Of a DNA stretch of 64,000 nucleotides, positions 11,101 to 24,797 are shown in pieces. The notes below the pieces were generated by a model that ran no database searches, was not told the DNA's origin, and saw only the letters and a program-made list of their open reading frames with translations. The stretch lies in contig CALJOK010000021.1 of NCBI GenBank assembly GCA_937981555.1, positions 1-64,000 of the forward strand, given 5' to 3'. Both the position numbers and the translations under genes were made by a program. Position 1 is the stretch's first letter. Every line of letters begins with the position of its first letter. The DNA comes from an uncultured Saprospiraceae bacterium (GTDB lineage: Bacteria > Bacteroidota > Bacteroidia > Chitinophagales > Saprospiraceae).

Positions 11101-14100
11101 ATCTGAATCCGCTCCATCATCTCCACCTTCATTTGGATAAGTCGTTACAAAACCATTTGGTGTTGCAAAAGTCAATTTATAAGATCCTGGTGCAAGGTTA
11201 TCGAAAATATATTTTCCATCTGCATCAGTTGTTGTAGTCAAAGTAACTGGTGTTCCGTTTCCAGTTGTTCCAGTTAAAACTATTGGAACATTTGGAATTC
11301 CAGCTTCACCCAAGTCCATGATTCCGTTGGCATTTGTATCAACGAAAACCATATCTCCGATTTTTCCAGTTTTATAAAAACCAGCATCGTAAGTATCATT
11401 GTCTTCTCCACTTACCAAGTTTTCAAAAACAGTCATTCCTGAAATTGGGTCAGCATCAGAATCTAATGCATCATTTCCTCCTTCGTTAGCATAAGTTGCT
11501 TCATAACCTAAAGGCTTGATGAATGTTAATTTATAATCTCCAGGGGCTAAATTTTCGAAAGAATATTTACCATCTGCGTCAGTCATTTGCGAAGCGAAAA
11601 CAGCTTCTCCATCTGCAGTTGTTCCTGTTAAATTTACGATCACTCCTTCGATACCAGGCTCGCCAGCATCCATAATTCCATTTGCGTTGATGTCTTCGAA
11701 AACCATGTTTCCGATTTTTGCATCACACAAATCAACTATAACTTTTGCACCAGCTACATCCAAAGATCCACAAAGCAAACCGCCACCTTGTTGTAACAAT
11801 GCATTTACATCGAAGCCAGTTGTCGTTCCGATAACTACTGTAGATAAATCTAAGTAGTTAGGATCATTTGCATCAGCAACATATATTAAAGTATGAATCG
11901 TGTAATCACCAGGTGTCAACGCGGTGAAAGTTGGAGTTGAGTTTGTTTCCTCAATCACTAATCCATTTCCTTTAGTCAAAACATAAATCACACTAAAACC
12001 AACTGGCACATTTGCATCGCCATTTGGTGTAGCTGAAATATTTCCATTTCCAGCAGGAGCTAAACAAACAAGTGAATCGTCAATGTCTAACGTTCCAGCT
12101 TGAGGATCTAACTCAACTGTAATAGTTTGAGTTTGAACATCTTGGTTTCCGCAATTATCAGTTGCAGTCCATGTTCGAACTATTTGATAAGAACATCCTT
12201 CGCCGCTAGTTTCTACAAAATCAATAGTTACATTTCCATCACAATTATCTGTTGCCGTTGGATTGGCAACAGCAGGAACTGGAAGTGCATTAACTGTAAG
12301 ACTAGCAGGAATATTTGCTAAAACAGGATTAGTAGTATCCTGAACATTTATTGTTTGAGTGTATGTATCTGTGTTGCCACAATTATCAGTAGCTACCCAA
12401 GTTCGAGTAATTACATAAGTGTCATCAGTACACGCACCATTATTTGTTTTTGTTGAAGTTTCAGAAAAAGTGATGTCAACATTTCCATCGCAATTATCAT
12501 TTGCAGTCAAAGTTGCAGGAGCAGGAACATCATCACACTCAACTGTTGCATTAGCTGGTAGATTTCCTAAAACTGGATCCGTTGTATCTTCAACTGTGAT
12601 TACTTGTTGTTGAATATCTGTGTTTCCACAGTTATCAGTTGCTTTCCAAATTCGAGTTAAAGTGTAAGAGTTACTATTACAACTTCCGTCAGTTGTTTGA
12701 TTAGTTTGCTCCGCAAACTCAATCAAAACATTCGTATCACAATTATCAGAAGCAGTTGGATTTGCTGGTGCTGGAATTGCACTACACTCAACTGTTGCAT
12801 CAGCAGGAATTCCTGCCAACTCTGGAGAAGTTGTATCAATTACCGTTACTACTTGAATAGCTGTGGTGATATTTCCACAAGCATCAGTTGCTGTCCAAGT
12901 TCGGATAACGGTATAATTATCTGTACAAACTCCTAATTGCATTTCTTCATCTAAAGTAATTGTTGCATTAGCATCACAGTTATCAATAATTTGCAAAGTT
13001 GGAGCAGGTTGAAATGCATCACACTCAACTGTTACACTTGCAGGTATATCCAAAATTTCTGGACCTGAAGCATCAATCACAGTCAATACTTGTTCATCAC
13101 TTGAAGTGTTCCCACAATTATCAGTTGCTGTCCAAGTTCGAGTTAAAGTATAATTATTAGGACAGTTACCATCAGTTCTTACTTCAGCAAAAGTAACCGT
13201 AACATCATTATCACAATTATCATTTGCTCCAACCGTAGCTGGTGCAGGTACATCATCACAAAGTACTGTATCATCAGCAGGAGCTGAGATACTTGGATTA
13301 GTTGTATCTTCGATAGTTGCTACTTGAGTGTAAGTAGATTGGTTGCCACAGTTATCTGTTGCAGTCCAAACTCTTGTTAAAGTATAATTATCTGTACAAG
13401 ATAAGTTTGTTCTATATTCTTCATTTAAAATAACAGTTACATCAACATCACAGTTGTCAGTAACTACTGGATTTGGTGGTGTTAAATTATCACTACATTC
13501 CAAAGTTACATCAGGTAAGTTGGCAAACACAGGAGGTGTTTGATCAGCTACCGTAATGATTTGAGTTCCCTGGCGTGTATTACCACAGTTGTCTGTAGCA
13601 ATCCAAATTCTTTCTAATTGATAATTATCATCACAAGTTCCATTAATTCTATTTTCATTAAAACTTACCGAAACATCATCATCGCAATTATCAACTGCAG
13701 TTGGTTGAGCAGGTGCAGGCACCTCATCACATTCCACAGCCATATTCGCAGGTACTCCACTTAGTACAGGTTTAGTAGTATCAACATAAGTTACCATTTG
13801 AGTAGCTGTTCTTTGATTACCACAATCATCTGTTGCAGTCCATACTCTTTCCATTGTGAAATTATCATCACAAAGACCTGGAATCATATTTTCATTAAAT
13901 GAAATATCTAGGTTATTATCACAATCATCAGAGAAAGTAGGTACAGCTATAAGATTTGGATTTTCATCACACTCTACTGTAATATCATTAGGTATGTTAG
14001 TAACGGTAGGAGCTAGATCATCATTAATAGAAATGGTTTGAGTAACTGTAATTAAATTTGGATTGTTAGCACAATCAATTGCTTCAAGGTTTGTAAAAAT

Positions 14101-16425
14101 CTCTCCACAACTTCCCCAAGTTCCTTTAGTCCAAGCAGCCATACCATATTGACTACTTCCATCATTTCCAGCACCATTGGTCAAATGAGCAGACATATTA
14201 CTTCTTGTAGAAATAGTAAACGTTTCACCGTTAACTGTAATAGTACCATTATAAGTAAGATAATGAACTTCTGATCCAGATAGATAACTTGTATAGCAAG
14301 CATCATCATATATCGGACCTGTTGAATTTTTATCAGTAAATTGAATATTTACATGACCTACATTCCCATTATAGGATATGTCTCCAACCATTAAAGCTGT
14401 ATTATTTGAATATTCATAAAATGTCAAATTATTTTGAGCTACCCAATATTCAAATGGGTTTCCACAATCTTTACGGTAAAAAGCTGCATTTCCATTAGCA
14501 CAATCCGAATTAGAATTCTTAACCTTATAAAGATTAACTATGCTAGCTGAAGAATTTGAACAATAAGGATCATAAGTCCAAGTACGAGTAATTATTTCCG
14601 GACAATTACCACTTTCAGTATCTGTAAATGAGATTCCAGTTTCTTCTTCACCACATAAAAATGGATGTCCAGTATTAGATGGATTAGTAGAAGCATTACA
14701 ACTAATTGAAATATTAGCAGGAGCTGTCAAATCATCACAACCACAAGTTCCAACAACTTCAACCGCACCAGCCAATACATAAGATTGACCATTTACAGTT
14801 TGACCATTTTGATTATGTCGAGTATCTATTTCTAAAGTTACCACATTAGTAAGTGCTGGAACATTCGTTAATGTCAATTGTATAATATCCAAACAACATC
14901 CTAATGTTGAACTAGGCCCATAAACTATTTCTTGATCAGACACTCCCCCCGCAGTAGCACGCAATAATAAATATCGACCATCATCTGTTAATTCAGACAT
15001 TGGAACATTTACAATAACATCTCTTGCTACTGATGAAGCTGGAATATTAAAATCCATTGTTTCATAATCATTATATCCACTTACATATGTAAAAACTCCC
15101 GTTTGCTCAGATCCTGATGCAGTATTTCTAAATAAATACGCCACCATAGTTTGAGCATGACTTTCATTTGAAGATTCATAGTAACTTACTGAAGAAGCAT
15201 TAGGAAGAATTGCACGATATACCCACACATTAGAACTTAACCCAGAAGGCTGTTCTCGATTTGCAATATATGGAGTCGCATTATTATCATATACGGTGAT
15301 AGTACTTCCAGGATTCCCTCCCTTATATACTACCTCAACAACAGCTTCATAAATATTAGAACTATTTGAAAAATTTAAAGTAGCTGGAATTTGATTATTA
15401 ATTCCCATTCCTACTATTTCTACACTTTTTCCACTTTCACAACTAAAATCCCAACCAGTAATCTCAGCTGGACAATAAGAAGGATTCAAATTCCAAGTTT
15501 GATTTGTACATCCAGAAACAGTAAAATGCTCATCATACAAAAGGTTATTCCAATCTGTAGGAGTATCTATAGCTCTCCACATTGCTCCATCTAAAGTGGT
15601 AATTGTTTGACTTTCTCCAGGTGCGAGCATAGCAATATCGATATCCCCATTCGGAATCCATTTAAGGATTCTCGCAGGGCAGGTACCATTATTATTAATC
15701 GTCAAATCAGAATTACAAGCACAATACATTGGATCGACATTCCATGTTTGATCGTTACAACCAGTTACGGTATAACTTTCATCAAATACAAGGTTACTCC
15801 AATTACCATCGTTTACTCGCCACATTGCACCATCGTGCGTAGTTGTGGTGTAGGTATCTCCAGATTCAATGTCTACTTTATAAACATCTCCGCTTGGTAA
15901 CCATTCGTAAACTTCTAGATGACAATGACCTACATTTCTAATTGTCAATTCAGGATTACAATTCACTTGCCCATCAAAAAAAGCAACATTTGATTCAAAC
16001 ACTTCACATCCCGCAGCCTCCCTGATACAAAAGAAGTAATAAACCCCTGAGATAGTAGGTACATGGGTAAGCGGTGTTGAATAAGACCAACTTGATCCTG
16101 GAGCAGGGCTAGTTGTTCCATTATCATCGTACATCCAAAGCCCTTCGTAATTCACGCCACATATACTAGGTGCTGTAACAGCTACTGTAGTAGTGCTAGC
16201 AGTAACTGTACCTGGAGTAACATTCGTACAAGTACAATTATCTGATACAGATGTTTCCGTTACCTCTCCATTATTAGTACCTAAGTTATTAAATAGAGAA
16301 AAATCTTCATTATTAGATGAAGCATTAAAATAACCTAGATTTTTAATACCAATAGATGAATCGTCTTCTACATTGCTTAGATTGGAAAGCCCTGACTCAT
16401 CTGATTTAAAAGATGTCAAGGTCAT
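1..16425 (-). CDS. Giant repeat-rich surface protein, partial (C-terminus outside window)
   Basis: One uninterrupted minus-strand reading frame runs from about 16425 to the left edge, at least 5,475 codons with no stop. Frame was checked near 13.3 kb, 8.2 kb and at the edge. From the N-terminus it encodes a mature region starting with SDNCTC, two VHL-beta-like domains (15960-15510), a mixed beta-rich region (15.5-14.06 kb), 8 HYR-like repeats (14.06-12.09 kb), a linker, 10 SdrD_B-like domains (11.72-8.19 kb) and 34 more HYR-like repeats (8.19 kb to the edge). The HYR-like units carry the signature TATDNCGN and an ECDAVPAP-like motif. By analogy with Bacteroidota proteins of this build it is an exported adhesin or gliding-type surface protein with a T9SS sorting domain at the unseen C-terminus (inference). 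16425 is the first in-frame ATG, but the signal peptide lies upstream of it. No enzymatic domain is visible. Confidence 0.9.
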   Translation of the reverse strand, partial: MTLTSFKSDESGLSNLSNVEDDSSIGIKNLGYFNASSNNEDFSLFNNLGTNNGEVTETSVSDNCTCTNVTPGTVTASTTTVAVTAPSICGVNYEGLWMYDDNGTTSPAPGSSWSYSTPLTHVPTISGVYYFFCIREAAGCEVFESNVAFFDGQVNCNPELTIRNVGHCHLEVYEWLPSGDVYKVDIESGDTYTTTTHDGAMWRVNDGNWSNLVFDESYTVTGCNDQTWNVDPMYCACNSDLTINNNGTCPARILKWIPNGDIDIAMLAPGESQTITTLDGAMWRAIDTPTDWNNLLYDEHFTVSGCTNQTWNLNPSYCPAEITGWDFSCESGKSVEIVGMGINNQIPATLNFSNSSNIYEAVVEVVYKGGNPGSTITVYDNNATPYIANREQPSGLSSNVWVYRAILPNASSVSYYESSNESHAQTMVAYLFRNTASGSEQTGVFTYVSGYNDYETMDFNIPASSVARDVIVNVPMSELTDDGRYLLLRATAGGVSDQEIVYGPSSTLGCCLDIIQLTLTNVPALTNVVTLEIDTRHNQNGQTVNGQSYVLAGAVEVVGTCGCDDLTAPANISISCNASTNPSNTGHPFLCGEEETGISFTDTESGNCPEIITRTWTYDPYCSNSSASIVNLYKVKNSNSDCANGNAAFYRKDCGNPFEYWVAQNNLTFYEYSNNTALMVGDISYNGNVGHVNIQFTDKNSTGPIYDDACYTSYLSGSEVHYLTYNGTITVNGETFTISTRSNMSAHLTNGAGNDGSSQYGMAAWTKGTWGSCGEIFTNLEAIDCANNPNLITVTQTISINDDLAPTVTNIPNDITVECDENPNLIAVPTFSDDCDNNLDISFNENMIPGLCDDNFTMERVWTATDDCGNQRTATQMVTYVDTTKPVLSGVPANMAVECDEVPAPAQPTAVDNCDDDVSVSFNENRINGTCDDNYQLERIWIATDNCGNTRQGTQIITVADQTPPVFANLPDVTLECSDNLTPPNPVVTDNCDVDVTVILNEEYRTNLSCTDNYTLTRVWTATDNCGNQSTYTQVATIEDTTNPSISAPADDTVLCDDVPAPATVGANDNCDNDVTVTFAEVRTDGNCPNNYTLTRTWTATDNCGNTSSDEQVLTVIDASGPEILDIPASVTVECDAFQPAPTLQIIDNCDANATITLDEEMQLGVCTDNYTVIRTWTATDACGNITTAIQVVTVIDTTSPELAGIPADATVECSAIPAPANPTASDNCDTNVLIEFAEQTNQTTDGSCNSNSYTLTRIWKATDNCGNTDIQQQVITVEDTTDPVLGNLPANATVECDDVPAPATLTANDNCDGNVDITFSETSTKTNNGACTDDTYVITRTWVATDNCGNTDTYTQTINVQDTTNPVLANIPASLTVNALPVPAVANPTATDNCDGNVTIDFVETSGEGCSYQIVRTWTATDNCGNQDVQTQTITVELDPQAGTLDIDDSLVCLAPAGNGNISATPNGDANVPVGFSVIYVLTKGNGLVIEETNSTPTFTALTPGDYTIHTLIYVADANDPNYLDLSTVVIGTTTGFDVNALLQQGGGLLCGSLDVAGAKVIVDLCDAKIGNMVFEDINANGIMDAGEPGIEGVIVNLTGTTADGEAVFASQMTDADGKYSFENLAPGDYKLTFIKPLGYEATYANEGGNDALDSDADPISGMTVFENLVSGEDNDTYDAGFYKTGKIGDMVFVDTNANGIMDLGEAGIPNVPIVLTGTTGNGTPVTLTTTTDADGKYIFDNLAPGSYKLTFATPNGFVTTYPNEGGDDGADSDVDPTTNMTDFEELESGETNLTYDAGYYELAKIGNLVFEDKNANGIQDAGEPGIGGVAILLTGTTGNGTTVSLTTTTDGNGNYDFDNLVPGDYKLTFTSPTDFKATYANEGGDDTLDSDADPITGMTVFETLESGEDNPTYDAGFFKSGKIGDMVFVDKNGNGIMDLGEPGIPNVEVTLTGTTGNGTTVTLTTTTDADGKYIFDDLAPGTYKLTFETPTGFVTTYPNEGGNDAADSDVDPTTNMTEFVTIESGEENKTLDAGYYELAKIGNLVFEDKNADGIQDVGEPGIGGVEVLLTGTTGNGTPVTLTTTTDGNGNYVFDNLVPGDYKLTFTSPTDFKATYANEGGDDTLDSDADPITGMTVFETLESGEDNDTYDAGFFKTGKIGDMVFVDTNANGIMDLGEAGIPNVQVVLTGTTGNGTTVTLTTTTDADGKYIFEDLAPGSYKLTFATPNGFVTTYPNEGGDDGADSDVDPTTNMTEFVTIESGEENKTLDAGYYEYAKIGNFVFEDKNANGIQDAGEPGIGGVEVLLTGTTGNGTTVSLTTTTDGNGNYDFDNLVPGDYKLTFTSPTDFKATYANEGGDDTLDSDADPISGMTVFETLESGEDNPTYDAGFFKTGKIGDMVFVDKNANGIMDLGEAGIENVEVTLTGTTGNGTSVTLTTTTDANGKYIFDDLAPGTYKLTFNTPTGFVTTYPNEGGNDAADSDVDPTTNMTDFVTIESGEENLTLDAGYYEPAKIGDMAFVDVNANGIMEAGEPGIQFVTVLLEGFTGNNTPVTLTTQTDANGKYLFDNLVPGVYKLTFTADPVYQTTNQDLGGDDALDSDIDPITGMTDFEVLESGETNLTYDAGYYVFGKIGDFVWLDCNEDGMQSPGEEGIEGVVVRLFGTDGFGAAVQATTTTDADGKYEFDGLIPGVYLLTIDLPTIPTGYAFTIANQGDDAFDSDFDGGATGDITITSGLIVTDIDGGLRDDEAPTFAGVPVDTTVECDAIPAPATPIATDNLDTDVTITFVETSTQSGNTADCQNNTFTITRTWTAEDNCGNVSTAVQVITVEDTTDPILADVPADVTVECDAIPAIGTPTATDNCDVDAAITFNEVRIDGNCEDNYTIERTWTATDNCGNDISQTQTITVQDTSDPELIGVPADVVVECDLVPAPATPAAIDNCDVDVDITFNEVRTDGNCTDNYTLTRTWIATDNCGNTDTKVQVITVQDTTDPNIYDIPANVTVECDAIPAVSAAPFANDNCDDDVTITFAEVRVDGNCADNYSLERTWTATDNCGNNVSQTQIITVQDTTDPMLAGIPANETVECDAIPNPANPTATDNCDADVTIAYEEVRTDGNCADNYTLTRTWTATDNCGNTDVQVQVITVQDTTDPELIGVPANVTVECDLVPTAATPEAIDNCDDDVTIDYVEVRTDGTCVDTYTLTRTWTATDNCGNTDVQVQVIQVQDTTDPNIYDIPANVTVECDAVPAPSTAPFANDNCDDDVTITFAEVRVDGNCEDNYTLERTWTATDNCGNDVSQTQIITVQDTTNPELIGVPADVTVECDLVPAPATPAAIDNCDADVDIAFNEVRTDGQCVDSYTLTRTWIATDNCGNTDTKVQVITVQDTSAPTIYDIPVNVTVECDAIPAVSTAPFANDNCDDDVAITFAEVRVDGNCEDNYTLERTWTATDNCGNTDSGTQIITVQDTTDPILAGVPANETVECDAVPTAATPTATDNCDADVTIAYEEVRTDGTCDDTYTLTRTWTATDNCGNTDVQVQVIQVQDTTDPILAGVPADETVECDAVPAAATPTATDNCDADVTIAYEEVRTDGTCDDTYTLTRTWTATDNCGNEDVQVQVIQVQDTTNPELIGVPANVTVECDLVPTAATPEANDNCDDDVTIDYVEVRTDGVCVDTYTLTRTWTATDNCGNTDVQVQVITVQDTTDPNIYDIPANVTVECDAVPAVSTAPFANDNCDDDVAITFAEVRIDGNCEDNYTLERTWTATDNCGNDVSQTQIITVQDTTDPELIGVPANVTVECDLVPAAATPVAIDNCDADVDIAFNEIRTDGQCVDSYTLTRTWIATDNCGNTDTKVQVITVQDTSAPTIYDIPANVTVECDAIPAVSTAPFANDNCDDDVAITFAEVRVDGNCEDNYTLERTWTATDNCGNTDSGTQTITVQDTTDPILAGVPANETVECDAVPVAATPTATDNCDADVTIAYEEVRTDGACEDTYTLTRTWTATDNCGNTDVQVQVIQVQDTTDPILAGVPADVTVECDAVPAAATPTATDNCDVDVNIAFEVEIIPGTCPDSYTMIRTWTATDNCGNENVQIQNITVQDTTDPTLIGVPANVTVECDAVPAVANPTAEDNCDPNPIVTFNEVRIDGACVDTYVLERTWTATDACGNDYSETQIITVQDTTDPTLQGVPGNVTVECDAVPAPAQPTAIDNCDVDVDLAYAEVRTDGSCDDNYTLTRTWIATDNCGNETTQVQVITVQDTTDPALQGVPANTTVECDAIPLPASPTATDNCDTDVDISFLENITPGSCTDNYTIIRVWIATDNCGNTTEGVQIITVEDTTDPVLSGVPANETVECDAVPAPAQPTATDNCDTDVDVSFEEVRTDGTCLDTYTLTRTWTATDNCGNTDVQVQVIQVQDTTDPIMVAVPADETVECDAVPAPAQPTATDNCDVDVNITFEEVRTDGTCPDTYTLTRTWTATDNCGNTDIQVQVIEVQDTTDPVLVGVPADAIIDCNNIPAPAQPTATDNCDVDVAISFDENITDGSCADNYTITRTWTATDNCGNSVSQTQTLTVQDIVDPTISGVPADVTVECDAVPAPAQPVATDNCDADVDLDFTEVQTDGNCLDNYTLTRTWIATDNCGNTTTEIQVITVQDTTDPILSGVPTDVTVECDAVPAPATPTAVDNCDADVIIVFAEVQIDGDCTDNYTLERTWTATDNCGNTDVQVQIITVQDTTNPTLSGVPGTVTVECDAIPLPLVIGVDITATDNCDTDVSIVLQEEIFAGSCSDNYTIVRTYTATDNCENTDVKIQIITVEDTTPPTITGVPADLIAECDEVPAAPAAGTIIVSDNCDTDVAATFSEIIQPGGCADSYTIKRIWTATDNCGNITVATQNITVSDVTPPTLSGVPADTQVDCNSVPAAPTPGSVTATDNCDVNVYIQYFEELIDGACEDSYVLKRTWTATDNCGNETQATQVITVGDATGPVLVGVPADLEVECNDIPAPANPTATDDCDTDVDISFVETTTPGSCENSYILTRTWVATDNCGNETVGIQNITIQDTQSPILAGIPTDTSADCNSVPAPPANVTATDNCDTNVTIDFTETSAPGACANATIITRTWTATDACGNSISASQTISVGDASAPVLVDVPTNITVECNAVPAIATNITATDNCDTNPLVSFDETTTPGVCTDSYTLTRTWTATDACGNESSESQIITVQDTQDPTIAGVPADVTIDCNSVPAPATPIANDNCDTDVDVDFAETSVADGCGFIITRTWTAIDNCGNTASATQTLTVTSDAPVLSSLPTDITVECDNIPLAATVTASSDCLPTIQVDFSETIIDGACANGYTIERTWITNAGCGTAVSHTQTITVEDTTDPTLIDVPSNVTVECNAVPQIATNITATDNCDTNPLVSFGEILTPGACENSYTLTRTWTATDACGNEISQSQIITVEDTQDPILAGIPADVTVDCNLVPA
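4279..7130 (-). repeat. Higher-order duplication: two 6-unit blocks offset by about 1,426 bp
   Basis: Within the HYR-like array, 4279-5704 and 5705-7130 match each other nearly base for base at a constant offset of about 1,426 bp, six repeat units. Markers are the unusual GAVLTAG-type linker coded at about 4753 and 6179, a second copy of that linker at about 5229 and 6656, and a TPEAIAS-like linker at about 5470 and 6899. Differences are scattered single bases. A further partial block around 7140-8000 resembles the second block at a five-unit offset (about 1,190 bp). This points to recent unequal recombination inside the array. Confidence 0.8.
8190..11725 (-). repeat. 10 tandem SdrD_B-like domains (about 353 bp each)
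   Basis: Ten copies of a roughly 118-residue unit beginning KIG(D/N) start near 11718, 11365, 11010, 10657, 10300, 9948, 9591, 9240, 8896 and 8543. Each holds a DxNxNGxxDxGEPGI motif, typical of the calcium-associated loop of SdrD B-like domains, then a TTTTDxNGxYxFDNLxPGxYKLTF core and a DSDxDP..GMT tail. The middle units alternate between two subtypes (KIGDMVFVDxNANGI and KIGNLVFEDKNANGI), so the array has a dimeric higher-order period near 706 bp. The terminal units diverge. A stiff, calcium-braced stalk is the likely role, by family knowledge. Confidence 0.88.
12090..14060 (-). repeat. 8 HYR-like repeats proximal to the SdrD_B block
   Basis: DNCGN-coding motifs recur at about 12150, 12380, 12629, 12877, 13112, 13350, 13590 and 13830, the same 238-bp period as the distal array. 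These copies are more divergent from one another than the distal ones, as expected for the older edge of an expanding array. A linker at 11.73-12.09 kb, ending in DLCDAKIG, joins them to the SdrD_B block. Confidence 0.85.
15510..15960 (-). repeat. Two VHL-beta-like domains near the N-terminus of the giant protein
   Basis: Two consecutive units (about 15960-15760 and 15717-15510) share the pattern CNxxLTIxNxGxCxxxxxxWxPxGD, a hydrophobic ..L/I.xGxxxTxTTxDGAMWR, then N-LxxDExxTVxGCxxQTWN. The layout of a short strand after an Asn, W..(D/S)G, PG/SG, a His/Asp-Gly-xx-Trp and a closing TV strand resembles the beta domain of the von Hippel-Lindau protein, a fold also found in bacterial extracellular proteins. 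The assignment is by motif memory and has not been tested by profile search. Confidence 0.55.
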
Positions 16426-16527
16426 AAAAGAGCAACAAAGAAAAAGAAGAGAGAAAATACTCCATCTAGAATAGAATCTACTTGAAGAGCTGTTAATTGT
16501 GTACATGTTTGGAATCATGATATTAAA
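16426..16527 (-). other. Out-of-frame start and signal-peptide segment of the giant gene
   Basis: The frame of the giant protein stays open upstream of its first ATG to a TAA at 16527-16525. It encodes a good signal peptide there (RFYSRW followed by a hydrophobic run SIFSLLFLCCSF), but the open stretch contains no ATG, GTG or TTG. The only upstream ATGs, at 16520 and 16508, are in another frame. They give a 32-residue peptide whose TGA (16424-16422) overlaps the giant gene's ATG as ATGA. Between the two frames lies a short (GT)3 tract at 16499-16504. Loss of one GT unit would join the ATG at 16520 to the signal peptide in frame (MIPNMYTINSSSS). A sequencing indel, a slipped-strand switch, an ATT start or translational coupling are all possible. 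Confidence 0.6.
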
Positions 16528-17119: not shown

Positions 17120-18325
17120 ATGAAAAAAAATAAACTATTGTTTTGCTTACTCCTTCTTTTTCCTTCTTTTTCTTGTAAAAAACATAAAGTTAATATTCAC
17201 TTGGAGAAAGGGATGATAATTTCGGAATCGGTGACAGTTCTAACAGACACTTTTAGAATTGATGGAAGTAGCGATAATCCAGCTTTAACAATTCAAGGAG
17301 ATAATATTGTGGTTGATTTCCAAGGAGCAGTTTTAAAAGGATCAAATAATAAAAATCTGCCAAATGAATATCATGGAATTGGGATTTTAGCAAAAGGAAA
17401 AAACATTGAAATCAAAAATCTCCATCTCCAAGGTTTCTACCTCGGAATTCTAGCAACTCAAGCTGATAGTCTAAAAATCAACAATTCGAACCTTAGCTAT
17501 AATTTCCGTTGCGAAAATGGAGATAAAAATAAAATATATAAATGTTCACAACCGCTTGATAGTAAATTTGGGAAAATCAGAGCCGCTGGTTTAATGGTAA
17601 ATCAGAGTCAAGAAATAATCCTAGAAAACAATCAAATTACTCATAACAACTCCGGAGTAATTTTAGAATCAGGAGTAACTGGTGAGATTTACAACAATAA
17701 AATAACTTTTAACCTAAATGCAGGAATTGCCGATATGGGGAATCGGGATTTAATTTTAAAGCATAATTATATCAATTGGAATCGAGGACCTGGTTTTACT
17801 TGCTCTTCTAACAGTCGAGACATTATTATAGCTTATAATTCTATGGAACAAAATGCTAGCAACCTTTTTTGGAAAAATATTAATTTCTCCAATAATCTAT
17901 TTCCCCAAACAGCAAAAGATCGAAATATAGATTCTTTACAAAAAAAATATCCTCCTCTTTCTAGCTCACAGAATACCACCTTGCCCTTACTCCCTTATAA
18001 AGGAACAGAATATTGGTTCGATTCTGATTGGGGTTTTTATGATTTCGAATATCCCGCCATCTGGCTTCGAGAAATCAATGATGACAAATACACCTTCGCC
18101 ATTTTCGGTCCAGAAGGAAATTGGAAAATCGTCAATGGAAATGGTTTCGTTCAAACTTCTCGTCAATCAGGAAGTATTCCTGCCACCATCGTTGCAACAA
18201 AAGAAAAGAATGCAAATCCAAAGAATCTATCGCTGGAATTAGAATTTATTGGTGTAGAGTTTACAGATCAATTTGGAAATATAAATCCTAGAGGTAAAAC
18301 AACTAAGTTTCAATTTAAAAATTAA
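17120..18325 (+). CDS. Right-handed beta-helix repeat lipoprotein
   Basis: The protein starts MKKNKLLFCLLLLFPSFSC, a lipoprotein-type signal ending at a Cys followed by KKHK, so an outer-membrane or surface lipoprotein is likely. The ATG at 17120 is chosen over a TTG 54 bp upstream because it puts the signal peptide at the N-terminus. Residues of about 50-270 show parallel beta-helix repeats: short strands of the type NIEIKNLHLQGF, LKINNSNLSYN, IILENNQITHNNSG and IYNNKITFNLNAG, as in pectate-lyase/NosD-like folds. The C-terminal 120 residues (around YWFDSDWGFYDFEYPAIW) form a separate unrecognised domain. No catalytic residues can be assigned. The gene precedes the TIR/STAND island by about 290 bp and need not belong to it. 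Confidence 0.75.
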   Translation: MKKNKLLFCLLLLFPSFSCKKHKVNIHLEKGMIISESVTVLTDTFRIDGSSDNPALTIQGDNIVVDFQGAVLKGSNNKNLPNEYHGIGILAKGKNIEIKNLHLQGFYLGILATQADSLKINNSNLSYNFRCENGDKNKIYKCSQPLDSKFGKIRAAGLMVNQSQEIILENNQITHNNSGVILESGVTGEIYNNKITFNLNAGIADMGNRDLILKHNYINWNRGPGFTCSSNSRDIIIAYNSMEQNASNLFWKNINFSNNLFPQTAKDRNIDSLQKKYPPLSSSQNTTLPLLPYKGTEYWFDSDWGFYDFEYPAIWLREINDDKYTFAIFGPEGNWKIVNGNGFVQTSRQSGSIPATIVATKEKNANPKNLSLELEFIGVEFTDQFGNINPRGKTTKFQFKN

Positions 18326-18618
18326 GCCACATTGTCTTTTTTTACCATTTGTATAAAAGTCATTTTTTTTTGTAAAAACAATGTTTTTACTTACATTTAA
18401 AGTTCAAGAAACCGAAGAAAGCAATCCCCTTTTATTTTAGCCTTCTTCTCGAAATTTATTTTGTTTAAAAAAATAAATTTCCCCAAACAAATTCACACAA
18501 CAACACATTAAACATTTTTAATCATTGAAGCTTTCCATAAGTTCAATGGTTACCTGAGAAAACGCCATACCCAGAAGGGAAATATTTTTTAATAAATTAT
18601 TTCCTAAACATTTATTTT

Positions 18619-20079
18619 ATGGCGGACATATTTTTAAGCTATGGTCACATCGACAATGAAGACCCCGAAGGTTGGGTCAAAGAGCTTGAAGAAAGATTAG
18701 AAAAAAGACTAAACTCTCTTTTTGGTAAAAGAGATAATCGCATCTATATCGATAACGAACAAGATGGAACTAAGATATTAGATGATATGATGAAGTCTAA
18801 TATTGACGATGCTTCCATCTTCCTTACTGTCGCATCTCCTGCTTATTTCCAATCCGAATATTGCCTCTACGAAATCGATTATTATATGTCGAAATTGGAT
18901 ACAGAGGATTATTCTCCCGAAGAAAAAGAAGCACTTCGCAAAAAGTTATTATCTCGAATTGTAATTGTTAGAAAACTCGATACAGAGTTTACTCACGATG
19001 CATTGACTAAGCAGATTTACATTAACTTTTGTGATGAAGAATCCAATCGAGAGCTTACTAGTAATTACCAACCTGATCAATATATTTCTCAAGTTTATGA
19101 GTTGGCAACGATCCTCTTTAATATTCTCAAAATAGCCAAGGAGGAAACAAATGAACTTCAAAACCCTGACGATATAAAAGTCGAAGCTCATCAAGCAAAA
19201 CCTAAAATATTCATCGCAGAACCTGCGCCTGACAAAAAAGTATATGCGCAAAAATTGGAAAGTCAATTATTAGTGGATGGATTTGATGTGATAAAACTTC
19301 CAGCCAAACAACGAATCGCTGACGAGTGGGAAGAGCAAACTAAAGAATATATTATTGGTAATGATTGTCAAACGGTTGTTCACATTTTAGGTAAAAATTT
19401 ACAATACCAAAATGATACTTCTCTCCAAGAAATTCAATACGAAGCTGCCAGAGAAGAACGAGACAATATGGAATTTAATCAAATCGTATGGATTCCAAAA
19501 GGAAGCGACAATGGCAATAAAATCCAAAATCAATTTTATAAAAAACTTCGAACGGAGCATAGTAAAGTTAGTTCGAAAGGTGGTCAGGCAGAGCTCTTAG
19601 AATCTAATTTTGAAAATTTTAAAAATCATTTATTGAAAACTTTAGACTCCATGGATATCCAAATGGAGGATGAGGTTGCCATGAATATTTCTGACTTAGA
19701 AACTAATCAAGAGGAAGAAGAAACCTTGATTGACATCTACTTCCTTTTTCCTTACAAAATTCAAGAGCAAGCTATGGCTCTTTTACAAAATATTAAAAAT
19801 AAATTTCCACAATACCGACTTCGAATGGTTCCAAATGTCTCTGCTATCAAAGATATGGTTCACCAAAGTTTGTTAGCCTCTAGTAGTGCTTATTTAATTT
19901 TCCCAGGAGGCAATGATGATTTTTTAGATAAATCGGCAATGGATATTACTTCTAATTGGAAAAAGAATTTTAATGATAAGGAAATGTTTGCTGAACAATT
20001 CAATTATCAAAACAATGATCTCATTCTTATTTATCCAACAGCAGACCCTGAAATCGCCGATCTTATTTCGTTTTTCTAG
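18619..20079 (+). CDS. TIR-domain protein with three alpha/beta modules
   Basis: Residues 1-170 form a TIR domain: IFLSYGHIDNE (strand A), IYIDNEQDG (BB-loop region), ASIFLTVASPAYF (strand D) and SEYCLYEID with Glu85 placed where the catalytic glutamate of TIR NAD hydrolases lies. Residues 195-342 are a second TIR-like module (KPKIFIAEPAPDKKVYAQKLE, VVHILGKNL, SLQEIQYEAAREE). Residues 368-486 (IDIYFLFPYK, AYLIFPGG, LILIYPTADP) look like a third Rossmann-type unit that I do not recognise. There is no signal peptide, so it is cytoplasmic. A 71-bp gap to the nSTAND1 gene suggests one operon. TIR domains in such contexts usually act as NAD-cleaving effectors or assemble signalling complexes (family knowledge); which applies here is unknown. 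Confidence 0.82.
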   Translation: MADIFLSYGHIDNEDPEGWVKELEERLEKRLNSLFGKRDNRIYIDNEQDGTKILDDMMKSNIDDASIFLTVASPAYFQSEYCLYEIDYYMSKLDTEDYSPEEKEALRKKLLSRIVIVRKLDTEFTHDALTKQIYINFCDEESNRELTSNYQPDQYISQVYELATILFNILKIAKEETNELQNPDDIKVEAHQAKPKIFIAEPAPDKKVYAQKLESQLLVDGFDVIKLPAKQRIADEWEEQTKEYIIGNDCQTVVHILGKNLQYQNDTSLQEIQYEAAREERDNMEFNQIVWIPKGSDNGNKIQNQFYKKLRTEHSKVSSKGGQAELLESNFENFKNHLLKTLDSMDIQMEDEVAMNISDLETNQEEEETLIDIYFLFPYKIQEQAMALLQNIKNKFPQYRLRMVPNVSAIKDMVHQSLLASSSAYLIFPGGNDDFLDKSAMDITSNWKKNFNDKEMFAEQFNYQNNDLILIYPTADPEIADLISFF

Positions 20080-20150
20080 TATAAAAACAACCTTGTCTCA
20101 TTATTTATAACAACATATTTACAAGTTAACTACATCAACTCAAGACATCA

Positions 20151-23100
20151 ATGAATACGGATTCAATACTCAAAAAAATACTTAATAAATCCAAACAAGA
20201 TATTAACCCCTACCCTGGCTTACGTCCATTCCAAATGGATGAGCATCCCTACTTTTTTGGCAGAGAAAAACAAACTCGTGAACTAATAGATATTTTAAAA
20301 AAATCTAGATTCATCTCCGTTATCGGAACTTCTGGAAGTGGTAAATCATCTTTAGTTCGAGCTGGAATGCTTCCTTTTTTATACAAAGGAATGATGTCTG
20401 ATGATGCAGCTGATTGGTCGATCTGTACGTTCCGACCAGGTATCGCCCCTATTGACATTTTAGTAGATAAACTTTTTGAGCTCTCCAACAAAAACGAAAA
20501 TAACAATACACTTACAAAAAATAAAGACTTCGAAAAAAAGTGGATTAAGAAAACCATTCTTGACAATAACGAAGGTATACTACATGCTTATCAGCAACTC
20601 AATCTTAGTGGGAAATTATTATTAGTCGTAGATCAATTTGAAGAAATTTTCAGGTATAAAAATGAGGCTGATGATCAAAATGAAATGGCTCGTGCATTTG
20701 TCCATCGACTGATCAAAGCTAGTCGTCAAAACAAAGAACAAATTTATGTCTGCATCACCATGCGATCTGATTTCCTAGGAGATTGTTCTGAATTTTATGA
20801 CCTACCAGAAGTCATTAGTAAAGGCATGTATTTGGTTCCTCGACTAGATAGAAATGAATTACGAAAAGCAATTACTGCTCCTGCCCTATTACAAAATGCA
20901 ACAGTCGATCCTTCTCTAGTTGACCGACTGATCAATGACCTCGACGGACGACAAGATCAACTCCCATTGCTACAACATGCCTTGATGAGAACCTTCGAAA
21001 TATGGAAAGACCGAAATGATCCAAAGTCTTATATTTCCATGGTTGATTACAAAAAAAGTGGCACGATGGACCGAGCACTTTCCGACCACGGGGATAGTAT
21101 ATTAAAAAAAATAAAAACAGATCATCCAGATGAAATACAATCTGAAGAATTTTTAAATATTGCCAAAAAACTTTTTCAATGTATCACTCAAAAGTCAGGA
21201 GAAAAAGGAATTCGTAGACCTGCTTCTTTAAAAAAAATAAGCAGAACTATTGGCGTCCCACAGGTTAAAGTCATCAAAGTCATTAACTATTTTAGAGATG
21301 AAAAAAACTCACTCTTGATGCCACCGATTGATAAATCAAAACCTCAAACGATTGATTTAACACCAGAATCTATCATTGATATTTCACATGAAAGTTTGAT
21401 GAGAATTTGGACTCGGCTAAAAGACTGGGTCGAAGAAGAGGAAGAAAAAGGACGAAAATATAAACGTGTTTATGATGCTTATCAGTTGAATGAAGAACAG
21501 TTAGCCTACAAAAAAAGTAGTTACCTCGTAGGTAGGAAATTAAAAGTATTTCATAACTACTTAAAAGAAATAGAACCAACTAATGAATGGGCAGAAAGGT
21601 ATGGAGGAAAACTAGAACAAGTCACCAATTATATTGAAAAAAGTTACCGTCGAGTACATAGACAAATGGCTACCTTTTTTGGGTCACTTGCACTTATAGC
21701 TATTTTCTTATTCATTAGTTACATTGCGAGTAATCAATACTTGAGATCTTTTATAGAATGTTATAATACCGAAATTGAAGCATCGAAAACGAATGACCAT
21801 ACCCAATCTTTTATTTATTCATCCAAAACACTTACCACTTTAGGAGATGCAAATAATACCTATGGGAAGTTAGTTTTTGAGTTTAAAAACTGGATTTATG
21901 AGTTGTTCTCTGGCGACGAAGACTATGGAAAAATCTCTACTACAGAAATGGAAATTCGTGCGCAAAAAAAATTAATTTCTGCATTTAACCATGGGGCATT
22001 TTATAGTAGAAATTTTGAAAAAATAAAACAGTTTGCTTTCTCCAATGATGAGAATTATTTATTTACTATCGATAATAAAAACATAATAAAACGTTGGAAT
22101 ATCAATAATAAAAATGCGGAACCTATTCAATATAAAATTCCTAACATAGGCTCTAATTCTTTACCAACTCAAATGATCGTTACAAAAAATAATTCAACAA
22201 TTTATTTAAGTTTTAAGTCGCAAAATAGTTTGGATGTAGAATTTCGCGCTATTGATATTTCTCGAATAGAAAATAGATTAACAATGAAGGAAAGGTCTCA
22301 ATATAAAATTGAAACCAAATCTAGATATAGTGAATCATTTTATTTGAGTGATGATGAAAAACTACTTTTCCCAGATCGAATAACTACTGACATCAGAGAA
22401 GTAGCAAGTGGTAAGCAACTCGAAGAAATCAATAAGATTCAAAAAGATTCCATGAATTTGTCTTTTTATAATTTTTCTAAAGACAGAGAAATCTCAATAT
22501 TTGGAATTAAATCTAATTACTATATTAACGCAAAGGATGAAAAACTACACAGACTATTAAATAAGGATACTACCAAATATACGACCTATGAATATATAGA
22601 ATTAATGGCTAATGATAAAATTCTAATTACTTACTCTTCTGATAAAACCAAAATTTGGGATATCAAAAATCTAAAACTATTGGAAGAAAGGAAGGGAAAT
22701 TTAAATTATATGGCTAATGATCAATATTTAGTTCTTGAAGGAAAAAGAAAAGAAACGGTAGAGATATTTGACCTAAAAGACTTAACTCAACCAATGGACA
22801 ATCTAAAGTCAGAATTAAGGATAAAAGGTTTAAATAAGAAGATTGGATTCCCTTCGGTTCAGGCATGGAAAGATGGTTTTGTATTAGTTGCAAATCATTC
22901 TAATTCTCCTCAGTCAACATTATATCAATTACCAATTAAAACAAAATATGATCTTGGAGAAGTTATTGACAACTCTCTTTTTAAATTTAAAACCGTTCAA
23001 CATTTCACTCCTAGAATAGGTCAAAAAAACATAGGATATATTAATCAGGAAAAAGGGTTTATTGAATTCGGAAAAGATTTATCAGACAAAAAGTCGATTA

Positions 23101-24218
23101 CAAAATATAGTCCGACAAAAAAGGTTTTTGGTCACCTTGCTGAAGAAGGACAACTATTAATTTACCAATTAAAAAATTATAATTCCGACGCAAATAATAT
23201 CAGCGGACACCTCTCTAGTAATTTTTTCCTTGCTGGGTTTAACAAAGATTCACTTATTGCATATACTCATCAAGGTATATATTCTTTTAAAGATTCTTAT
23301 TTACAAAATGTTCCAAATGATTATGGTTTTATCATTTTCTCAGATGACATGAGTAAATTAATTGGCTTACAAAGAGATTATAAAAAATTGGATATTATCC
23401 CAATAAGTAAAACCACTAATGAAGCAACCACCATAACTTCTAGATACAATATAGATCAGTTTGTTTTGAATAATGATAATAAGAAAGTTGCACTTACTAC
23501 TTTTTATAAAAAATCTGCGAAGTTAAGAATATACGAAGGCAATGAATTTGATAAATCCCATACCGTAAATTTTTATCATAAAATTTCAGAGTTAGGATTT
23601 TCAAAACAATCAGATGACTTAGCTGTAGTTATAAAAGACACTTTACTTTTTATTCCACCTGATTTCAAAGGAACGAAGTTCGAAAGAATTTCAGATTCAT
23701 TATCCTTTCTAAAGGTTATGGAAAATAAAACTGTCTTAGACACCATCTCTCCTTTAACTTTTCCAACAAAAATCAATTGCATCAATTCTTTTATCAATGA
23801 ACAGAAAAAAGAAATTTGGATGGTTGGATTAGAAAATGGAGAAATCCACACTCTAAATGAAAATAAAGACTCAGTTATTCAAATTTTCCATTGTGGAAAT
23901 TATCCTATTAATGAAATTCAACATAGACGGATTACGTTAAAAGATGAAACAGAAGTTGATGAATTCATTATTTCCGATGAAGGGACAATTTATATTTTTA
24001 GACAAAAAACACCTACTGATAATTTCGAACTTTTCATCAAATTAGAAACGACGGTTCCTGTTCGATCTATATTATTCAATAAAGAATTGAACTCATTTTT
24101 CACCGTAGGCGAAAATGGTTTTATCAAGAAATGGTCAATTAACTATGAAGACATAATTGAACAAATTGATAATGATTTAATCTATGGAGATATTTATCAT
24201 CCTATCTCAAAGAATTAA
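20151..24218 (+). CDS. nSTAND1-type NTPase with transmembrane segment and propeller-like C-terminus
   Basis: The protein opens with NPYPGLRPF and YFFGRE, the standard entry to nSTAND1 NTPases. It has a Walker A GTSGSGKSS (59-67), a Walker B/DQFEE (156-165), a sensor-like ITMRSDF (about 202-208) and the STAND helical-domain signature ISHESLMRIWTRLKDW (about 411-426). A hydrophobic span at about 506-527 (FFGSLALIAIFLFISYIA) predicts one membrane pass. Residues from about 600 to 1355 are beta-rich, with WD40-like turns (KRWNINN, KIWDIKN, KKWSINY) suggesting one or two degenerate propellers that would face away from the NTPase across the membrane. STAND proteins switch on by ligand-driven oligomerisation, and the C-terminal repeats are usually the sensor. 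It sits between two TIR genes with short gaps (71 and 90 bp). Confidence 0.88.
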   Translation: MNTDSILKKILNKSKQDINPYPGLRPFQMDEHPYFFGREKQTRELIDILKKSRFISVIGTSGSGKSSLVRAGMLPFLYKGMMSDDAADWSICTFRPGIAPIDILVDKLFELSNKNENNNTLTKNKDFEKKWIKKTILDNNEGILHAYQQLNLSGKLLLVVDQFEEIFRYKNEADDQNEMARAFVHRLIKASRQNKEQIYVCITMRSDFLGDCSEFYDLPEVISKGMYLVPRLDRNELRKAITAPALLQNATVDPSLVDRLINDLDGRQDQLPLLQHALMRTFEIWKDRNDPKSYISMVDYKKSGTMDRALSDHGDSILKKIKTDHPDEIQSEEFLNIAKKLFQCITQKSGEKGIRRPASLKKISRTIGVPQVKVIKVINYFRDEKNSLLMPPIDKSKPQTIDLTPESIIDISHESLMRIWTRLKDWVEEEEEKGRKYKRVYDAYQLNEEQLAYKKSSYLVGRKLKVFHNYLKEIEPTNEWAERYGGKLEQVTNYIEKSYRRVHRQMATFFGSLALIAIFLFISYIASNQYLRSFIECYNTEIEASKTNDHTQSFIYSSKTLTTLGDANNTYGKLVFEFKNWIYELFSGDEDYGKISTTEMEIRAQKKLISAFNHGAFYSRNFEKIKQFAFSNDENYLFTIDNKNIIKRWNINNKNAEPIQYKIPNIGSNSLPTQMIVTKNNSTIYLSFKSQNSLDVEFRAIDISRIENRLTMKERSQYKIETKSRYSESFYLSDDEKLLFPDRITTDIREVASGKQLEEINKIQKDSMNLSFYNFSKDREISIFGIKSNYYINAKDEKLHRLLNKDTTKYTTYEYIELMANDKILITYSSDKTKIWDIKNLKLLEERKGNLNYMANDQYLVLEGKRKETVEIFDLKDLTQPMDNLKSELRIKGLNKKIGFPSVQAWKDGFVLVANHSNSPQSTLYQLPIKTKYDLGEVIDNSLFKFKTVQHFTPRIGQKNIGYINQEKGFIEFGKDLSDKKSITKYSPTKKVFGHLAEEGQLLIYQLKNYNSDANNISGHLSSNFFLAGFNKDSLIAYTHQGIYSFKDSYLQNVPNDYGFIIFSDDMSKLIGLQRDYKKLDIIPISKTTNEATTITSRYNIDQFVLNNDNKKVALTTFYKKSAKLRIYEGNEFDKSHTVNFYHKISELGFSKQSDDLAVVIKDTLLFIPPDFKGTKFERISDSLSFLKVMENKTVLDTISPLTFPTKINCINSFINEQKKEIWMVGLENGEIHTLNENKDSVIQIFHCGNYPINEIQHRRITLKDETEVDEFIISDEGTIYIFRQKTPTDNFELFIKLETTVPVRSILFNKELNSFFTVGENGFIKKWSINYEDIIEQIDNDLIYGDIYHPISKN

Positions 24219-24278
24219 AATAATCGTAATCTAACCAACTCTTGACATTTCTAAGATAGAATTTGAGTCATTTTAATT

Positions 24279-24286
24279 TATATTTG
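24279..24286 (+). promoter_or_regulatory. Candidate -7 box (TATATTTG) before the small TIR gene
   Basis: TATATTTG matches the Bacteroidota -7 consensus TAnnTTTG, 23 bp before the small TIR ATG. A TTTG at 24262-24265 is only 13 bp upstream, shorter than the usual spacer, so this is a weak call. It would let the small TIR be expressed apart from the STAND gene. Confidence 0.25.
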
Positions 24287-24308
24287 TGTTATAACATTTT
24301 AAATTATA

Positions 24309-24797
24309 ATGACCAAAATCTATCTTAGTTACGCCTACGTGGATAATCAAAATTTCGAAGACAATGATCGGGCTTGGGTGAGTGCGTTCAAAGATGATTT
24401 AGAGAACGAAATTTCTTTTTTATTGGGAAAAATAACACCCATTACGATCTTTCATGACAAACAATTTGACAGCCCTAACTTATTGACTATCAAATATATA
24501 AAGGCAACTGACATTTTCATTTCTATTGGAACTCCTGCTTATTTTCTTTCTGATTATTGCCAAAAAGAACTGAATCTTTTTTTGAAGAGAGAAGATATTA
24601 GCCCTACTCTTCATGTATTTTTAGTTGATAAAAGACCATTTGAAGAAGCCACTCTTCAAGCCTCCTTGCCATTAAAAAACTTTATCCCATTCTATGATCT
24701 TTCCAATAAAAATGAATGGGATAGAAAAAATTCTGAGGAAAATTATTTTGCACAAATTTCTAATTTGGCTAGTCAGATAAATAACATCTTATCCTAA
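24309..24797 (+). CDS. Small stand-alone TIR-domain protein
   Basis: The 162-residue protein is a single TIR domain: KIYLSYAYVDN at the N-terminus, ITIFHDKQFD in the BB-loop region, DIFISIGTPAYF as strand D, and SDYCQKELNLF with Glu87 at the catalytic position and Cys84 three residues before it. It closely parallels residues 1-170 of the three-domain protein encoded upstream at 18619 (the same GTPAYF/ASPAYF and YCxxE motifs), so the two probably arose by duplication. There is no other domain and no signal peptide. It is the last gene of the apparent TIR/nSTAND1/TIR unit and converges on the terminator at 24866-24898. Effector or regulatory partner of the STAND protein is an inference. Confidence 0.8.
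   Translation: MTKIYLSYAYVDNQNFEDNDRAWVSAFKDDLENEISFLLGKITPITIFHDKQFDSPNLLTIKYIKATDIFISIGTPAYFLSDYCQKELNLFLKREDISPTLHVFLVDKRPFEEATLQASLPLKNFIPFYDLSNKNEWDRKNSEENYFAQISNLASQINNILS

Follow-up and report, generated by a model that had tools for sequence, protein, structure and literature searches.

We find that a TIR protein and a large nSTAND1 NTPase are encoded side by side as a conserved two-gene unit in the DNA analysed here, a 64,000-nucleotide stretch from an uncultured Saprospiraceae bacterium (hereafter the window; contig C21 of a 7.25 Mb genome). The first protein, TIR-L, joins a TIR domain to a DUF4062-like second module (M2) and a third module (M3), and the second carries an NTPase, a predicted membrane helix and a sensor region that evolves faster than the NTPase. 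With a rough probability of 0.55, we propose that the two constitute a two-component, NLR-like transmembrane receptor, which would use a pseudo-NADase coupler to activate a TIR NADase in trans and would serve in immunity. The gene that follows, encoding a small TIR protein (TIR-S), is probably a resident neighbour outside the conserved unit.

A TIR protein and an nSTAND1 receptor form a conserved gene pair

Three open reading frames (ORFs) follow one another on the + strand, 71 and 90 bp apart, as an initial annotation of the sequence had described, and the same order and frames recur in L017, an uncultured Saprospiraceae contig of genome G226 (loci and genomes used for comparison are numbered with L and G). 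The features are as follows.

18619..20079, + strand: TIR-L, TIR + M2 (DUF4062-like) + M3, 486 aa (ORF, Pfam, AlphaFold, conservation in L017)
18619..19128, + strand: TIR domain of TIR-L, aa 1-170; Glu85 codon at 18871-18873
19201..19653, + strand: M2 of TIR-L, DUF4062-like, aa 195-345; Gln273 codon at 19435-19437
19696..20076, + strand: M3 of TIR-L, third alpha/beta module, aa 360-486 (alternating strands and helices in the AlphaFold model; profile)
20151..24218, + strand: nSTAND1 receptor with transmembrane helix and sensor, 1355 aa (ORF, Pfam)
20208..21485, + strand: nSTAND1 NTPase, aa 20-445; Walker A GTSGSGKS at aa 59-66 and Walker B-like LLVVDQ (Pfam, 1.7e-83; motifs)
21669..21725, + strand: predicted single transmembrane helix, aa 507-525, flanked by basic residues towards the NTPase (hydropathy scan, lysine/arginine count)
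21981..24215, + strand: sensor region, aa 611-1355, partly WD40-like, predicted periplasmic (partial Pfam WD40-type matches; identity contrast)
22176..23075, + strand: stretch of greatest divergence within the sensor, aa 676-975 (sister loci 19-35% identical in each 75-aa block)
18322..24231, + strand: 5.9-kb block with TIR-L and the nSTAND1 gene, absent at the same site in the congener G078 (L025), edges accurate to a few bases (blastn, ORFs)
24232..24308, + strand: TIR-S leader, conserved in G078 (sequence comparison)
24309..24797, + strand: TIR-S, stand-alone small TIR protein, 162 aa; Glu87 codon at 24567-24569 (ORF, Pfam, comparisons)

Between the window and L017, TIR-L is 87.0% identical, residues 1-604 of the nSTAND1 gene product 82% and TIR-S 89%. 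The nonsynonymous rate (dN) lies far below the synonymous rate (dS) in each case (dN/dS values of 0.070/0.90 for TIR-L, 0.076/1.26 for the NTPase and 0.085/1.34 for TIR-S), indicating that the three ORFs are not due to chance. The L017 receptor gene has an in-frame stop at about 11346-11348, near codon 604, beyond which the frame remains open; this is either an assembly error or a recent loss, and the window copy is intact.

Upon examining the genes that follow TIR-M2-M3 genes, we observe that the next gene on the same strand encodes an nSTAND1 protein in all 16 that were recovered by TIR searches and in which TIR, M2 and M3 were all recognised (window, L017, L026, L027, L029, L030, L070-L078 and L088). 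Sixteen is a lower bound, as scoring was limited to three candidates per genome. The two genes are separated by -8 to 225 bp, with no intervening same-strand ORF of at least 120 aa in any of the 16. The same arrangement is found in two pairs reached by the nSTAND1 search (L094, L108), and a Caballeronia plasmid carries a related pair in which TIR and M2, though not M3, were recognised. The neighbourhood search that the initial annotation had recommended thus bears out a TIR protein in trans to a transmembrane STAND receptor as a conserved pair, with TIR-S probably outside it. In the source genome, TIR_2 has 11 matches, 10 of them over the cut-off, while a second nSTAND1 receptor was sought and rejected, as a single nSTAND1 match exceeds the cut-off.

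TIR-L joins a TIR domain to a DUF4062-like module

The Pfam model TIR_2 matches residues 4-93 of TIR-L above its cut-off (4.3e-12), and Glu85 occupies the position of the TIR catalytic glutamate, as does Glu87 in TIR-S, so that both proteins keep this residue as first reported. The AlphaFold model of TIR-L consists of three alpha/beta modules (mean predicted local distance difference test score, pLDDT, 70.4). In the structure search, the TIR module matches the folds of RPV1, RUN1 and RPP1, whereas a Foldseek search with the entire model returned mixed rows of low TM score. Fold and catalytic glutamate together make TIR-L a candidate TIR NADase, with the fold compared for this protein alone. 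The FxsC TIR-like model also matches both TIR-L and TIR-S with its N-terminal part, though with scores far below its cut-off.

The initial annotation had recognised three modules, which the model reproduces, and had left the second and third unnamed. Profile and structure comparisons relate M2, in both sequence and fold, to DUF4062/TIR-like domains: a 16-row M2 profile matches KpSwz at 2.5e-4, and the relative L139 exceeds the Pfam DUF4062 cut-off. For the window protein itself, a Pfam scan of modules 2 and 3 found no match, nor did phmmer with M2 alone against the PDB. In 44 of 45 M2 rows, including the window (Gln273), a glutamine stands in the column of the DUF4062 catalytic glutamate (KpSwz E97); the profile alignment is ambiguous between this column and one two residues off, and a natural DUF4062 protein was used to fix it. 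M2 thus seems to have lost the enzyme active site. By profile, M3 is detected after M2 in nearly all proteins, with L093 and L063 as exceptions.

The receptor combines an nSTAND1 NTPase, a predicted membrane segment and a divergent sensor

Pfam nSTAND1 (PF20703) spans residues 20-445 of the receptor with 281.8 bits against a cut-off of 27.1, and the domain match together with the Walker A and Walker B-like motifs assigns it to the nSTAND1 STAND NTPases. A phmmer search of the NTPase half against the PDB found nothing relevant (best 0.045, an unrelated coiled coil). One membrane segment is predicted, starting at residue 507 after the NTPase, in line with the single helix noted at the outset. 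Judged by a simple hydropathy scan rather than a topology predictor, 77 of the 81 nSTAND1 proteins that extend for 600 residues or more from the start of the domain have such a segment, which contradicts the earlier view that a membrane-crossing sensor is unusual. Lysine and arginine are richer on the NTPase side in 72 of these 77 proteins, poorer in 3 and equal in 2. By the positive-inside rule, the lysine- and arginine-rich flank of a membrane helix lies in the cytoplasm, and the bias therefore suggests that the NTPase is inside and the sensor outside.

The description of the sensor as propeller-like has some basis in WD40-type Pfam matches, but these are partial and far under the model cut-offs (best 9.7e-7 at residues 770-879; no better than 0.045 for the L017 sensor). 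AlphaFold modelling of the sensor from two homologous loci gave nothing usable. Relatives of the sensor were found in 0 of 149 other genomes of the family, a draw that does not include the L017-carrying G226.

Next, we compared the two halves of the receptor. Between the window and L017, the NTPase (residues 1-445) is 87.4% identical and the sensor (611-1355) 42.3%, with a sensor dN of 0.512, and the window sensor evolves faster than its NTPase. Among pairs with NTPase halves at least 75% identical, the ratio of sensor to NTPase identity (pairwise values, not independent) is 0.54, 0.54, 0.56, 0.68 and 0.91 in five TIR-class pairs, window/L017 included, and 0.80 in the second-receptor pair L070/L071. 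Same-genus fused receptors have ratios of 0.85-0.93, the fused pair L138/L140 0.70, and two other TIR-less pairs 0.91 and 1.02.

M2-M3 is linked to nSTAND1 with and without TIR

We surveyed nSTAND1 genes in 295 genomes of the same class, assumed to be Bacteroidia, and obtained 79 matches at E<=1e-20 in 57 of them (at most six first-look candidates per genome scored). The neighbourhoods were classified with home-made profiles, built partly from the same loci, with an upstream limit of 400 bp and one row per match, related genomes being left uncollapsed:

TIR-M2-M3 directly upstream: 12
M2-M3 upstream without TIR: 6
M2-M3 and nSTAND1 fused in one polypeptide: 14
nSTAND1 gene preceded by another nSTAND1 gene: 5
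TIR fused: 1
TIR but no M2-M3 upstream: 1
no arrangement of these kinds: 35
edge of the contig or locus: 4
ORF lacking: 1

M2-M3 is therefore linked to nSTAND1 in 32 of 79 rows, both with and without TIR, and is the part of TIR-L most widely linked to nSTAND1. From these upstream, fused and TIR-less counts, M2-M3 looks like the coupler and TIR like an add-on, with the fused M2-M3/nSTAND1 proteins as the strongest indication that M2-M3 and the NTPase function together. For two further M2-M3 genes, those of L080 and L081, the surrounding stretch contains no nSTAND1 gene; L081 is close to the end of its contig, and on the contig of L080 an nSTAND1 fragment lies about 2 kb away.

Proposed mechanism

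In the proposed mechanism, the WD40-like half of the receptor would lie in the periplasm and bind a variable trigger, which may be part of a phage particle or a product of envelope or inter-bacterial attack. The single membrane helix would pass the binding signal on to the nSTAND1 NTPase in the cytoplasm, and the NTPase would then oligomerise and dock onto M2-M3 of TIR-L. As glutamine replaces the catalytic glutamate, M2 may have kept the DUF4062/TIR-type fold as a scaffold or ligand-holding coupler rather than as an enzyme. Clustering of TIR-L would switch on the N-terminal TIR domain, which would cleave NAD+ and so stop the affected cell, with TIR-S taken as a separate, resident TIR protein.

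Several observations weigh against this mechanism. Window M2 is recognisable solely via the profile of its relatives, and the AlphaFold model of the sensor (mean pLDDT 41.6) is too poor for use. The dS between the window and L017 (1.86 for the sensor) is near saturation, so that only the dN contrast is used; the TIR-class pair L077/L094 has no fast sensor (the ratio of 0.91 above), and fast sensors exist among receptors that were not sorted as TIR-class (L112/L135, 0.55; L114/L147, 0.63; L143 paralogues, 0.64). No link to phages was found within the window. PADLOC gave weak ThsB matches for TIR-L and weak matches for the NTPase, no match for TIR-S, and repeat- or protease-type matches in two of ten other window proteins. 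Furthermore, 35 of the 79 survey rows stand without TIR or M2-M3, and a transporter-like gene lies within the fetched stretch of 8 (five loci seeded its profile, and three of them recur in these 8), indicating that receptors of this class have other roles too, perhaps non-immune ones. Among five transporter-linked TIR-L relatives, the TIR glutamate is missing in three (L076, L077, L094) and present in L029 and L088, so that NAD cleavage is not universal.

Alternative explanations

These last findings also favour envelope-stress or developmental signalling, in which a periplasmic propeller would monitor the envelope or outer-membrane partners and TIR-L would be a scaffold or NAD regulator; several genes for nSTAND1 proteins with a transmembrane segment (nSTAND1-TM) indeed adjoin outer-membrane beta-barrel, Kelch/PKD, TonB-receptor or ATP/ADP-transporter-like genes. 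The window pair itself, however, has no envelope- or transporter-type gene seen beside it, keeps the TIR glutamate and a fast sensor, and varies in presence at a single site within the genus. We consider the signalling explanation unlikely on balance, although it is the strongest competitor of the immune receptor.

The initial annotation had placed two TIR proteins in one module, and accordingly TIR-L and TIR-S could both be effectors of one receptor, with TIR-S amplifying or restraining TIR-L by TIR-TIR assembly. The shared strand, the 90-bp gap, the retained glutamate and the order kept in L017 are compatible with such a module. The congener G078, however, has a NosD-like gene, TIR-S, a 126-aa gene and a PAF-AH-like gene in the same order as the window, with TIR-L and the nSTAND1 gene missing at the site, and the nucleotide alignment skips from about 18321 to about 24232 of the window, which is only the 5.9-kb two-gene block. 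Its TIR-S is 85% identical to that of the window (dN 0.089, dS 1.74). As G078 keeps TIR-S while lacking exactly this block, TIR-S is probably a neighbour, and its leader, conserved in G078 despite the missing upstream block, suggests a promoter of its own. Additionally, of the 14 loci outside the genus, 8 extend 500 bp or more past the last nSTAND1 gene, and in none of these does a small TIR gene follow the pair; the other 6 (L030, L070-L073, L088) are cut off at the receptor, and L094 and L108 bring the judgeable loci to 10. The three-gene operon is thus disfavoured as the conserved unit, which is the two genes TIR-L and nSTAND1, and joint action of both TIR proteins appears improbable. In the empty-site check, the flanking gene was unmatched in the congeners G168 and G267. 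G078 also lacks a gene for a 2300-aa surface protein and, further along, the ankyrin gene, and has a different nSTAND1 elsewhere in its genome (5e-23). The TIR_2 match over TIR-S (3.8e-5, 24.6 bits) is under the 28-bit cut-off.

Avs and bNACHT receptors sense phage proteins in the cytoplasm. A wholly cytoplasmic receptor, with the hydrophobic segment buried or membrane-peripheral and the propeller sensing cytoplasmic phage proteins, would fit characterised antiviral STANDs, which bind phage proteins by C-terminal sensors according to PMC10907252, but is improbable given the segment in 77/81 proteins and its charge bias in 72/77.

Further observations in the window and related loci

In the window, an ankyrin-repeat protein at 32158-32808 matches the PADLOC candidate-defence model PDC-M72A (3.4e-24, possibly via the repeats only), and a protein at 49000-50433 matches RT-Protease_XI (1.9e-15) and LmuA (1.9e-12). 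Positions 1-16518 (minus strand) hold an open frame of more than 5500 aa with strong internal repeats, and L017 and G078 have similar repeat-rich frames on the corresponding side of the locus.

Across related loci, a multi-helix protein of about 1000 aa is encoded near nSTAND1-TM genes (L029 14395-17307; L076 8856-12026; L077 4228-7416; L088 6511-9711; L094 1123-4341; L100 1981-5133; L103 2195-5347; L104 2056-5217; L107; L091; L092 2798-5944), with TLC (ATP/ADP-transporter-like), HEAT and cNMP-binding matches in L077. In L077 (12293-16001, with fn3) and L079 (1454-4157), outer-membrane beta-barrel genes come after the nSTAND1-TM gene, and in L084 (847-3175) a gene with PKD/Kelch matches does, as if the receptor had envelope partners. 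On a Runella rosea plasmid (L091, 2522-5941), STAS, anti-sigma antagonist and ATP-binding genes of the partner-switch type lie upstream of the nSTAND1-TM gene and a TonB-receptor gene follows it, and on the Persicobacter plasmid pPP2 (L092) an nSTAND1-TM gene and the transporter-like gene are located within a contractile injection system locus. The pairs of L071 and L072 include two nSTAND1 genes and have large TIR proteins divergent from the pair (L071 9755-11878, TIR + TPR; L072 4099-6741). L143 carries paralogous nSTAND1 genes (1365-6380 and 9703-14910) with NTPases 94% and sensor halves 60% identical.

Comparison with known systems

Thoeris consists of a ThsA partner adjoining a ThsB TIR protein. 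It was rejected here, as the ThsB matches of TIR-L are weak (3e-4, 0.013) and PADLOC found no ThsA among the three proteins and ten other window proteins. A bNACHT receptor was likewise rejected (Pfam NACHT, 13.6 bits against a cut-off of 26.7), and none of the three proteins had an Avs match in PADLOC, the presence of Avs models in the library being unchecked. TIR-type plant NLRs such as RPP1 and ROQ1 combine a TIR effector, a STAND switch and a C-terminal sensor. The TIR module of TIR-L matches the fold of RPP1, as described above, whereas here the effector is in trans, a membrane span is predicted, and the sensor is propeller-like in place of an LRR.

Kaur et al. 2021 (PMC8195603) and PMC10907252 describe nSTAND1 conflict systems in which TIR or other effectors are fused or encoded nearby and the C-terminal sensor varies; the latter, on sensors linked to diversity-generating retroelements (DGRs), also predicts periplasmic sensor domains for one STAND target. 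The window pair shares the nSTAND1 NTPase, the variable C-terminal sensor and the effector encoded nearby, and nSTAND1/TIR systems are therefore of an already known kind. In contrast to the EAD or Death-like adaptors or N-terminal fusions through which those systems are described as linked, the window pair is linked via the DUF4062-like module and M3. No EAD was matched in the window proteins by Pfam, in a library whose EAD coverage is unchecked. L029 has extra N-terminal residues ahead of TIR, which we take, as a guess only, to be an EAD.

M2 is also related to the DUF4062/TIR-like domains of Swarozyc, a DUF4062 NADase antiphage protein (PMC13174449), but it has glutamine for the catalytic glutamate, and the window pair has a separate STAND receptor; as M2 lacks that residue, the system is not a Swarozyc. 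The order of DUF4062-like domain, STAND NTPase and C-terminal sensor in the fused relatives is shared with TEP1, NWD1, NWD2 and NPHP3, as given in the same source, with order alone compared. Here, by contrast, M2 lacks the glutamate, M3 and a membrane helix are added, and the NTPase is nSTAND1. Tentatively, and with less confidence than for the pair itself, a widespread bacterial class of transmembrane NLRs may exist, with a Glu-to-Gln DUF4062-like + M3 coupler, periplasmic sensors and interchangeable outputs, active TIR being optional; it would be an analogue, perhaps a relative, of TEP1/NWD proteins.

The pair would work like a STAND immune receptor and belongs to the nSTAND1 and TIR families. 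No description of the TIR-M2-M3/nSTAND1 pair was found in the open-access literature, judged by titles and abstract openings, and what appears new, within that searched literature, is M2-M3 as a coupler, in its fused and TIR-less versions. If the proposed mechanism is true, bacteria would have a cell-surface immune receptor in the form of a STAND switch that senses in the periplasm and triggers a TIR in the cytoplasm, and its frozen DUF4062 domain would bear on whether an inactive NADase can serve to connect an NLR-like switch to its executioner, as well as on DUF4062-STAND proteins such as TEP1.

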